Positions 5,094 through 7,298 of a stretch of DNA of 64,000 nucleotides are shown one piece after another. Numbering within the stretch: position 1 is the first letter of the stretch; each line of letters starts with the position of its first letter. Made by a program: the position numbers and the translations under genes. The notes under the pieces are model-generated. The model was not told the origin of the DNA and did not search any database. It was given only the letters and a program-made list of their open reading frames with translations. The DNA comes from Gordonia polyisoprenivorans (GTDB taxonomy: Bacteria; Actinomycetota; Actinomycetes; Mycobacteriales; Mycobacteriaceae), in contig NZ_CP072203.1 in NCBI RefSeq assembly GCF_017654315.1, positions 5,022,001 to 5,086,000 of the forward strand, read 5' to 3'.

Positions 5094-6074
5094 ATGAACG
5101 GTCCCGACACCTGGGGTATCCCCAGCACGACCTTCCTCGCCCTCTACGCCGTCATCTCGGTGGCGGCCCTCGCCGTCGTCATCGTGCGGCGACGTCCCGC
5201 CCACCAGCGGGTCGACGATCTCCCCGACCTCACTCCCGCACAGATCGGAGCATTGGCCTCCGAGGAGAATGCGGTCCTCGCCGCGGTCGCCCAGCTCCGG
5301 GCAGCCGGCTACATCACCTCGAATGGACGCGTGACCAATCGACTGAAAGCTGCACCCGCACAGAATGATCGGTTTGTGCGGGCGGTCGGTGACCGTTATG
5401 CGCGACGCGGCACGGGTGCCCTGCGTGACGTGTCGGCGCCGTTGCGGCAGGTGCACTCGGAACTCACCGAAGCGGGCCTGCGCCACGCACGCCGACGCGC
5501 GGTCGGGGTGGCCGTCCTGATTCCGGTACTCGTCCTCGGGCTGGCGCGGATCGTGGCCGGGCTCTCCCATCGCAAGCCGGTCGGCTATCTCGTCGTCATC
5601 GTGATATGCCTTGCTGCGGTGTGCATCTGGTGTGCCGTCCACCCTTGTGAGCGAACCGGGCGCGGCGATTCGGTGCTCACCGAACTGCGGCGGCGCCACC
5701 GGCTGCTCGCGCCGCAGTACCGGCCTGCGCTCGCCACTCTCGGCGCACACCACGCCGCGGTGGCCGCAGCCCTGTACGGCATCGAGGCCCTTACACTGCT
5801 CGATCCGCGCCTGGCCGCCGACCCGTCGCTCCGGCCGCCGACGACGGCCCCCGATCCGGTGATCGCCACGCCCACAACACCTGTCAAGCAGAAGGCCCGC
5901 TCGCGACGTGCCACGAGCAGCAGCGGGACATCGTGGTTCGGGTCCACCTTCTACGATGGCAGCGACGGCGGCTCGCATCACGGGGCTTCATCACACAGTT
6001 GCGGCGGAGGCTGGAGTGGCTGCAGCAGTGGCGGATCCAGCTGTGGGGGCGGTGGCGGCGGCTGCGGCGGGTGA
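5094..6074 (+). CDS. TIGR04222-type membrane protein with Cys-heptad C-terminal tail
   Basis: ATG at 5094 with GGGAGAA upstream gives 326 aa. One transmembrane helix lies near residues 10-30. A soluble part (DLTPAQIGALASEENAVLAA..., then YARRGTGALRDVSAPL) matches what I know of the TIGR04222 domain. Two more helices lie near 140-180, followed by a conserved-looking helical stretch ending ALTLLDPRLA. The last 50 residues are low-complexity Gly/Ser/His/Cys. Cysteines fall at 303, 310, 317 and 324, each exactly seven residues apart, preceded by SHHGASSHS. The next gene, a DUF692/MNIO enzyme 37 bp downstream, belongs to a family that modifies cysteines in peptide substrates, so this tail is a plausible substrate. 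That link is inference. Confidence 0.8.
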   Translation: MNGPDTWGIPSTTFLALYAVISVAALAVVIVRRRPAHQRVDDLPDLTPAQIGALASEENAVLAAVAQLRAAGYITSNGRVTNRLKAAPAQNDRFVRAVGDRYARRGTGALRDVSAPLRQVHSELTEAGLRHARRRAVGVAVLIPVLVLGLARIVAGLSHRKPVGYLVVIVICLAAVCIWCAVHPCERTGRGDSVLTELRRRHRLLAPQYRPALATLGAHHAAVAAALYGIEALTLLDPRLAADPSLRPPTTAPDPVIATPTTPVKQKARSRRATSSSGTSWFGSTFYDGSDGGSHHGASSHSCGGGWSGCSSGGSSCGGGGGGCGG

Positions 6075-6111
6075 TCACCACGAGACGGGCACATCAGAGA
6101 AAGGGCTCCGC

Positions 6112-6960
6112 ATGAACAGATCACGTAGTGCGTCGCAGGTCGCCGGTATCGGGATCGGCTGGCGCCCGGAGATCGCGGCCGTCGTCGACGGCCTCCCCGG
6201 CCTCGGATTCTGTGAGGTCATCGCCGAATCGGTGCCGTACATCGACGTCGAACCGCTTACGGCGCTGGGGGTGCCGGTGATCCCGCACGGCGTCGGCCTG
6301 TCGTTGGGCGGTGCCGAGCCGGTGACCGACGACCGGATCGACATCCTGGCCCGTGCGGCTCGCCGCCTGCGCTCACCGCTGGTCAGTGAGCACATCGCGT
6401 TCGTCCGAGCGGGCGGCGTCGAGGCCGGGCACCTGCTGCCCGTCCCCCGGACGCGCGAAGCGCTGGCAGTGTTGTGCGACAACATCACTCGCACCCAGGA
6501 CCGGTTGTCGGTGCCGCTGGCGGTGGAGAACATCGCAGCACTGTTCTCCTGGCCCGACGACGAATACACCGAGGGTGAGTTCCTCACCGAGATCGTCGAG
6601 CGCACCGGGGTCCGACTGCTGCTGGACGTCGCGAATGTGTATGCGTGCGCCCGCAACTCGGGTGCCAACCCGGCCGTCGAACTCTCCCGGATGCCGCTCG
6701 AGGCGATCGCCTACTGTCACGTGGCCGGCGGCGAATCCGACGGGGTGCTCTATCACGACACCCACACCGCACCCGTTCCCGACGCGGTGCTCGACCTCGT
6801 CACCCGGCTCGCCGCCACCGGGCGCGCACCGGCGTTCATGCTCGAGCGCGACGGCCGGTATCCGCCGGTGACCGAACTCCTCGGTGAACTCGACGCGATC
6901 GCCGACGCCGCACGGATGGACCGGATCACCGTCGGCAGCCGCTGGTGGGCGGCGTCGTGA
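6112..6960 (+). CDS. DUF692 / MNIO-family multinuclear non-heme iron enzyme
   Basis: This 282-aa TIM-barrel protein belongs to the DUF692 (MbnB/TglH/bufferin-synthase) family. Family metal-site motifs are visible in order: HGVGLSLG (His59), SEHIAF (Glu93, His94), VENIA (Glu139), LLLDVANVY (Asp172, Asn175), CHVAGG (His203), YHDTHTAPVPD (Asp216, His218) and LERDGRYP (Glu near 252). Known members use two or three iron ions and O2 to rearrange cysteine residues of ribosomal peptides. ATG 6112 has GAGAAAGG upstream and lies 37 bp after the Cys-tailed membrane protein. Its stop overlaps the next gene's GTG by 4 bp. Enzyme class is secure; substrate and product are not known from sequence. Confidence 0.9.
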   Translation: MNRSRSASQVAGIGIGWRPEIAAVVDGLPGLGFCEVIAESVPYIDVEPLTALGVPVIPHGVGLSLGGAEPVTDDRIDILARAARRLRSPLVSEHIAFVRAGGVEAGHLLPVPRTREALAVLCDNITRTQDRLSVPLAVENIAALFSWPDDEYTEGEFLTEIVERTGVRLLLDVANVYACARNSGANPAVELSRMPLEAIAYCHVAGGESDGVLYHDTHTAPVPDAVLDLVTRLAATGRAPAFMLERDGRYPPVTELLGELDAIADAARMDRITVGSRWWAAS

Positions 6961-7250
6961 CCGGCCTCGCCCGGCGGCAGGAAGCGCTCGTGCGCGCGCT
7001 CGTCACCGGTGCGCCGCCGCCTGCGGGCTTCGATCCGACGCGGCTGCGCGCCGTCGAGGACGCCCTGTTGCGCAAACGGTCCGGTGAGGCGGCCCGACAT
7101 CTACCGCTGCTGTGCGCAGAACTCGGGGAGCGCAGGTTCACCGAGTTGTTCTGCGCGTGGGCGCGCCGGCGGGAGCGGGGCGGATCGTGTGCCGATGCCG
7201 CGGCGTTCGCCGCGCAGCTGCCCGCAGACGTAGCAGAAGGTCACGCGTAG
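6957..7250 (+). CDS. Small partner protein of the MNIO enzyme (SCO6045-like)
   Basis: A 97-aa protein starts at GTG 6957, overlapping the MNIO stop as GTGA, which implies translational coupling. The sequence is helical and Arg/Ala-rich: LARRQEALVRALVTG, FDPTRLRAVEDALLRKRSGEAARHLPLLCAELG, RFTELFCAWARRR. It resembles the small proteins that follow DUF692 genes in Streptomyces and, in layout, the DUF2063-type partners of bufferin and methanobactin systems, which recruit the precursor peptide. An upstream in-frame GTG at 6945 is possible. The partner role is inferred from position and size; no catalytic motif is visible. Confidence 0.7.
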   Translation: MTGLARRQEALVRALVTGAPPPAGFDPTRLRAVEDALLRKRSGEAARHLPLLCAELGERRFTELFCAWARRRERGGSCADAAAFAAQLPADVAEGHA

Positions 7251-7298
7251 GGCGAACCTTCTGCTACATCTGCGGCAGCATCGCCTGACGCAACGAGA

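Follow-up and report, generated by a model that had tools for sequence, protein, structure and literature searches.

The stretch of DNA analysed here, referred to throughout as the window, comprises 64,000 nucleotides of the Gordonia polyisoprenivorans contig NZ_CP072203.1 (assembly GCF_017654315.1, positions 5,022,001 to 5,086,000 of the forward strand). Close to its start lie three adjoining genes – encoding a membrane protein of the TIGR04222 family with a tail rich in Gly, Ser and Cys, an enzyme of the MNIO (DUF692) family, and a small helical protein – which read as an operon-like unit (Table 1). A first-pass annotation, made from the sequence alone, had described three adjacent genes with the last two overlapping, and this arrangement was recovered, all three being on the + strand and the MNIO gene and small open reading frame (ORF) sharing 4 nt. 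The source genome has one TIGR04222 protein above the profile cut-off and one MNIO at E ≤ 1e-15, and the nearest named relatives of the enzyme are from Gordonia polyisoprenivorans (97% identity) and G. oryzae (95%).

Table 1. Features of the TIGR04222–MNIO locus, in window coordinates.
Feature	Position	Strand	Size or residues	Basis
TIGR04222 membrane protein, candidate substrate	5094..6074	+	326 aa	NCBIfam TIGR04222 profile, AlphaFold2, hydropathy
Gly/Ser/Cys tail, candidate modified region	5946..6071	+	residues 285-326	sequence and conserved columns
MNIO (DUF692) enzyme	6112..6960	+	282 aa	PF05114, NF050167, motif conservation
Helical partner ORF, GTG start	6957..7250	+	97 aa	4-nt overlap with MNIO stop

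The unit was compared across 59 genomes of the genus, 393 genomes that form an even sample of the Actinomycetes, and 80 named loci identified through their MNIO, which belong to Nocardia (31), Mycolicibacterium (10), Pseudonocardia (8), Tsukamurella (8), Gordonia (7), Mycobacterium (5), Actinomadura (3) and others. For the class, the surroundings of 144 TIGR04222 hits, to a maximum of ~5 kb either way, were retrieved; a C-terminus was read in 142 of them, the other two having no stop codon within the retrieved sequence. A C-terminus was scored as a Cys tail if it has at least three Cys in the last 60 residues and at least 60% Gly, Ser or Cys in the last 30.

The first gene product scores 88.8 bits against the TIGR04222 profile (NCBIfam cut-off 43) and belongs to that family. 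Hydropathy and the AlphaFold2 model (pLDDT 80.8, pTM 0.70) agree on three hydrophobic helices, as the first-pass annotation had it, with predicted transmembrane (TM) segments at residues 11-33, 135-158 and 164-182; the two parts of a helical domain (48-126 and 189-241) are followed by a disordered linker and the tail. A Foldseek search of the Protein Data Bank (PDB) with this model gave no good match (best E 1.5). The annotated Cys tail is likewise present: its cysteines, at 303, 310, 317 and 324, are seven residues apart, and the protein ends exactly in CGG. Six tail columns (C317, G322, G323, C324, G325 and G326) are at least 90% conserved in an alignment of 61 sequences that took in 60 of the 66 listed homologues, and the exact CGG terminus is found in 74 of the 79 tails of the window's clade. 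The spacing of the cysteines varies elsewhere, with a mode of 6 in the class set, and the commonest ends among the 67 class Cys tails are GGCGG (28), GCGGG (10) and CGGGS (5). In 249 of 296 cases Cys is followed by Gly, whose share of the last 45 residues is 48%. Neither a DUF2282 match (Pfam) nor an EGKCG repeat, the marks of a bufferin or captophorin precursor, was found in the TIGR04222 protein. In Gordonia desulfuricans (L028:5578-5835) all that can be recognised in frame of a TIGR04222-like protein beside an MNIO is its C-terminal 86 residues, Cys tail included.

The second gene encodes an MNIO, scoring 259.5 bits against PF05114 (gathering score 25). Among curated MNIO equivalogs the closest is BufB (NF050167), although the score of 184.5 bits is below the cut-off of 310 and the enzyme is not a member of that equivalog; the MbnB model gives only 35 bits against a cut-off of 325. 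The His, Asp, Glu and Asn motifs align with those of the solved MNIO structures 3bww, 8hci and MbnB (7tcr), and 15 motif positions are invariant in the window and the 80 related loci, which agrees with the earlier description of a complete set of metal ligands; which of the 15 bind metal we take from presumed ligand roles.

The 97-residue product of the third gene has no match in Pfam or NCBIfam, and no PF09836 match was found in it or in its genome. The Pfam matches of individual sequences in the partner alignment are weak and scattered, DUF2063 not being among them, and the partner profile has no match among PDB sequences. When this profile was compared by hhalign with eight DUF2063-type proteins, however, it aligned with columns 2-97 of 258 (E 3.4e-5 and 1.7e-6), and the protein accordingly appears to resemble MNIO partners of the DUF2063 type in their N-terminal half, while lacking the half that holds the RiPP recognition element (RRE; RiPP, ribosomally synthesised and post-translationally modified peptide). 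A full PME-type 1 partner (DUF2063 plus a complete RRE, ~250 residues) is ruled out by the length and by the lack of a PF09836 match, whereas the position after the MNIO and the relationship to DUF2063 without a Pfam signature are those of PME-type 2. Constancy of company points the same way, and the small partner of the first-pass annotation is upheld as a partner-type protein. A homologue stands directly after the MNIO in all 80 named loci (nine of these ORFs lack a start codon by the rule used and were omitted from length and overlap counts); at the class TIGR04222 loci all 71 MNIOs come with the partner domain, 34 of them as a separate ORF and 37 as a fusion at the C-terminus of the enzyme; and all 173 matches of at least 40 bits to the partner hidden Markov model in the fetched loci are at an MNIO. 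The natural fusions have the same domain order as an engineered MNIO-to-partner fusion, which is described in PMC13419390 as active, the partner modulating the iron cofactor. Fusions at TIGR04222 loci have no recognised description among the literature matches listed, including those for membrane-anchored DUF692, most preprints and subscription papers lying outside the scope of that search, and they are not described in 12 of the 14 passages on fusions in PMC12452194. In the genus coded f4/g7, perhaps Streptomyces, the MNIO-partner fusion at a number of loci, among them L199, L201, L207 and L217, lies upstream of a TIGR04222 protein that either has a long Ser/Gly/Cys tail or is a tailless paralogue (ending GEPDLRAAFAHRE...), and many loci of this genus with the tailless paralogue have no Cys-Gly tail nearby.

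The membrane protein and the enzyme often occur together. The neighbour of the MNIO is a TIGR04222-like ORF at 79 of the 80 named loci; at L061 the contig begins 53 nt before the MNIO. At the genus level an MNIO is found in 8 of the 59 genomes and TIGR04222 above the cut-off in 10, with both in seven of the eight MNIO genomes, and the genus TIGR04222 proteins that lack an MNIO and have readable ends (L321 and L322) have no Cys tail. Across the class, TIGR04222 is found in 115 of the 393 genomes – a lower bound, only part of the first-look candidates having been scored per genome – MNIO in 96, and both in 83 (Fisher p 6e-44). The frequent co-occurrence on which the first-pass annotation had staked its proposal is thus seen, and so is retention of the Cys tail beside the enzyme: 67 of the 142 TIGR04222 ORFs are Cys-tailed, of which 58 have an MNIO within 5 kb, seven have one elsewhere in the genome, and two have none, these being L282, where an MNIO fragment is cut by the contig end, and L300, which is without the Gly/Cys pattern. 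None of the 15 Gly/Ser tails with fewer than three Cys has an MNIO within 5 kb (six have one elsewhere), and 13 of them end in Asp or Glu. The remaining 60 TIGR04222 ORFs are without a Gly/Ser tail, and 23 have an MNIO nearby, mostly tailless proteins of genus f4/g7. Counted per genome, an MNIO is present in 61 of 63 with a Cys tail versus 22 of 51 without (p 4e-11). Other neighbours are not shared in this way: when ORFs of at least 110 residues within ~6 kb were clustered and the 25 most widespread clusters listed, none beyond the MNIO, TIGR04222 and an ORF antisense to the MNIO occurred in more than two genera. As judged from these comparisons the unit is real, conserved and more tightly organised than was noted earlier, with a Cys array that accompanies the MNIO, a partner at every TIGR04222 locus sampled, and a near-fixed CGG end in the window's clade.

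Tails of the same kind are also found on other scaffolds. Among 20 MNIO loci of our choosing that lack a nearby TIGR04222 Cys tail (four of the 13 MNIO genomes without TIGR04222, G466, G505, G681 and G695, are not among them), eight have a Cys-Gly tail on a different protein beside the MNIO. Six are single-TM microproteins of 84-119 residues, Arg-rich after the TM segment and with a Cys tail (L327, L329, L330, L331, L342 and L343); two (L341:3616-5043 and L344:5951-7306) have more than 400 residues and no TM segment (top 19-residue hydropathy 1.26 and 1.39), and that of L344 has no Pfam match. Additional single-TM carriers lie more than 2 kb downstream in Mycobacterium and Mycolicibacterium (L081:9206-9502 and L083:9074-9370). 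The microprotein tails are Gly-rich and often His-bearing, and were missed by the TIGR04222 profile used; the TM-less carriers of L341 and L344 sit upstream of an MNIO-partner fusion. These occurrences suggest that the Cys-Gly tail is a portable module, normally cytosolic.

Weaker hits to the TIGR04222 profile (L014, L121 and L123-L134) are DUF2207 proteins, with both DUF2207 domains in all seven that were scanned. Twelve of the 13 ends listed are Cys-free Gly-rich tails, nine of these with GGSW, and the starts look signal-peptide-like by eye in nine of 13. The DUF2207 proteins are like the window protein in being found by the same profile and in being mostly Gly-rich at the C-terminus, but differ in having a long N-terminal domain and no Cys in the Gly-rich ends listed; the window protein itself scores 18.2 bits against PF20990 (gathering score 33) and is not a DUF2207 member. 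Because these relatives end in a Gly-rich tail free of Cys, the Gly tail may be older than its cysteines.

The orientation of the membrane protein was assessed from charge. In 37 three-TM proteins, out of 54 clade proteins whose blastp score against the window protein is above 45 bits, the mean numbers of Lys plus Arg are 0.3 before TM1, 3.3 after TM1, 2.7 before TM2, 1.35 between TM2 and TM3, and 5.7 after TM3; the corresponding values for 44 of the 67 class Cys-tailed proteins are 1.18, 3.25, 3.23, 0.75 and 5.32. This pattern argues for an N-out, loop-in, hairpin-out, C-in arrangement, the reverse of the published view. We favour a cytosolic rather than a periplasmic tail because of this positive-inside pattern and because the same tail is found on single-helix and helix-less proteins; in the cytosol the tail could be reached by the MNIO without export. 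The published periplasmic assumption is by this result turned into a testable one.

From these observations we consider it probable (about 0.7) that the trio is a protein-modifying unit in which the MNIO, with its minimal partner, oxidises the tail cysteines of the adjoining membrane protein. The MNIO would assemble with the minimal DUF2063-type partner; the complex would then oxidise cysteines in the Gly/Ser/Cys tail of the TIGR04222 protein encoded next door, the tail being held in the cytosol (N-out, C-in) within the enzyme's reach; Xaa-Cys-Gly units would be converted to 5-thiooxazoles, as in bufferins and captophorins, groups whose absorbance lies near 305 nm (PMC13097082); and the modified protein would stay in the membrane as a tethered array of ligands for a soft metal, perhaps copper. 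Three features make formation of 5-thiooxazoles our best guess at the reaction. BufB is the nearest equivalog of the MNIO by score, Cys-Gly dyads abound in the tail, and the aligned catalytic Asp is kept: an Asp that our alignment equates with FonB-Asp249, the proposed catalytic base (PMC13097082), was matched by pattern in 79 of 80 clade members, L098 being unmatched. If the proposal is true, the substrate is an integral membrane protein, and MNIO chemistry would reach beyond RiPP precursors to resident proteins. More tentatively, and with the odds somewhat against so full a picture, the Cys-Gly tail may be a portable cytosol-facing module on three-helix, single-helix and helix-less scaffolds, read from its free C-terminus by an MNIO with a DUF2063 half-domain partner (~60 residues at minimum, or fused) and with no RRE or leader logic, to give a thiooxazole metal-binding layer at the inner face of the membrane.

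Several observations weigh against the modification of the tail by the neighbouring MNIO. The trio is patchy, with an MNIO in just 8 of the 59 genomes of the genus, and at 29 of 91 class MNIO loci the same strand shows no ORF with a Cys-Gly tail out to 3 kb. Genus f4/g7 accounts for 24 of these 29, where a TIGR04222 paralogue without a tail is often present (at L188 the contig truncates the end of the TIGR04222 ORF), and at such loci the MNIO may do something else. Where the MNIO lies elsewhere in the genome its link to a tail is weak, because five of the seven remote MNIOs have their own Cys-tailed carrier (four single-TM, one TIGR04222). On a tree of 127 domains, from which short, duplicate and X-bearing domains were omitted, tail state changes 12 times, giving six independent pairs on supported branches; an MNIO within 5 kb goes with the tail in 2.4 of the six pairs on average and in the opposite direction in almost none (median p 0.25), and for an MNIO anywhere in the genome 0.5 pairs go the same way and none the opposite (p 1). 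The association is phylogenetically concentrated, and the independent changes are too few to test it. As to the chemistry, the residue after the catalytic Asp is Phe or Asp in the two captophorin MNIO groups described in PMC13097082, whereas the residue after the aligned Asp is Gly in 78 of the 79 matched clade members, and, across the wider TIGR04222-linked set, one of Gly, Asp, Glu, Ala and Thr; given also the BufB cut-off that is not reached, the reaction may differ. No copper genes were seen to recur near the trio among the 25 neighbour clusters, whose functions were not annotated; a copper role is perhaps to be considered by analogy with the bufferins, but nothing in the neighbourhood covered speaks for it. 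A search for TIGR04222 in a library of 5.39 million papers gave PMC12452194 and one genome paper, and no experiment on modification of the tail was found in the literature covered. Finally, PMC12452194 places the tail outside the membrane on the basis of predicted topology, and a fourth hydrophobic stretch is present in 13 of the 54 clade proteins.

The last two points would fit a tail that is modified by the MNIO before translocation and then serves as an extracytoplasmic metal buffer, a bufferin-like protein anchored in the membrane. We regard this as unlikely: it runs counter to the positive-inside charge pattern, the conserved hydrophobic stretch after TM3 is split by AlphaFold2 into short helices at 213-241, the single-TM carriers with Arg-rich sequence after the helix and the TM-less carriers bear the same tail, and the DUF2207 relatives, most of them with a signal-peptide-like start as well as a Gly-rich tail, fit an N-out arrangement. 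The tail-free MNIO loci and the absence of modification data from the literature found would suit a tail whose cysteines stay unoxidised, binding metal or forming disulphides while the MNIO acts on another, unrecognised substrate; given that an MNIO accompanies Cys tails so closely and low-Cys Gly/Ser tails not at all within 5 kb, and that eight of the 20 MNIO loci without a nearby TIGR04222 Cys tail carry such a tail on other scaffolds, the chance of this seems small.

A different MNIO reaction might instead be directed at the fixed C-terminus (at the last Cys, for example, or excision or amidation as in pearlins or the products of MovA), with the inner cysteines used otherwise. The exact CGG end of clade tails would be explained in this way, and some of the MNIOs in Table 1 of PMC12452194 act on C-terminal residues, but the ends vary in other clades (CGGG, CGGGS, SSSS) while the multi-Cys pattern stays constant, and we give such a reaction a similarly low chance. 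Least credible by far is that slippage in GC-rich repeats produced the Gly/Cys tail incidentally and that the synteny is an inherited neighbourhood without function. The tail is of low complexity and the genome GC-rich, yet all four Gly and both Cys codons are used (GGC 789, GGT 227, GGG 198, GGA 137, TGC 240, TGT 49), a variety that led us to reject a slippage artefact, and the other neighbours differ between genera. Over the 42 tail codons, comparison of the window with two close relatives gives 5 and 7 synonymous and 3 and 3 nonsynonymous changes, with the four cysteines and the CGG end identical and no gap, which is a modest signal.

That TIGR04222 tails are MNIO substrates had been put forward in the first-pass annotation as a new substrate class, a claim of novelty that falls, for the idea is already in print as a prediction; what is sharpened here is the helper, the end of the tail and the orientation. 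According to the survey of Antoine et al. 2025 (PMC12452194), TIGR04222 proteins make up 40% of the Cys proteins that lack a signal peptide and are encoded ahead of an MNIO gene, and their C-terminal Ser/Gly segments bearing Cys were proposed as possible MNIO targets; the characterised substrates in its Table 1 are RiPP precursor peptides. The window has what defines those clusters, a Cys tail in a Ser/Gly-rich C-terminus (5946-6071) and an adjacent MNIO (6112-6960), together with a PME-type 2 partner. It departs from the survey's account in two respects: PME-type 2 partners were reported there in at least 10% of TIGR04222 clusters, many of which appear partner-less, whereas a partner accompanies all 71 sampled here, 37 of them as fusions; and the tail, periplasmic there, is on present evidence more probably cytosolic. 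The main text of PMC12452194 makes no mention of CGG, DUF2207 or Gordonia. The constant presence of a partner speaks to a point that the survey had not settled, and the natural fusions and 60-residue partners are ready minimal systems for asking what the partner does.

Among characterised systems, the bufferin, oxazolin and captophorin systems (BufABC, HvfABC and FonABC) resemble the window in an MNIO nearest to BufB, a DUF2063-type partner and Cys-Gly dyads in the substrate. The window differs from them in having no DUF2282 match, EGKCG repeat or apparent cleavable signal peptide, a partner without RRE, and a candidate substrate that is an integral membrane protein. It also differs from methanobactin MbnBC, whose substrate is a small peptide and whose MbnB model the window MNIO scores against so poorly.

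The trio is flanked on one side by a CDP-diacylglycerol pyrophosphatase-like gene and on the other by convergent tuf and fusA, both recognised from their translations. No PADLOC match was found, and a defence system is ruled out. A record of Tsukamurella tyrosinosolvens (L352) has the trio adjoining mshC, a mycothiol biosynthesis gene. In the window a perfect 12-nt inverted repeat (GTAGCAGAAGGT / ACCTTCTGCTAC, at 7230-7241 and 7256-7267) spans the stop codon of the small ORF and is perhaps a site of transcription end or mRNA processing.

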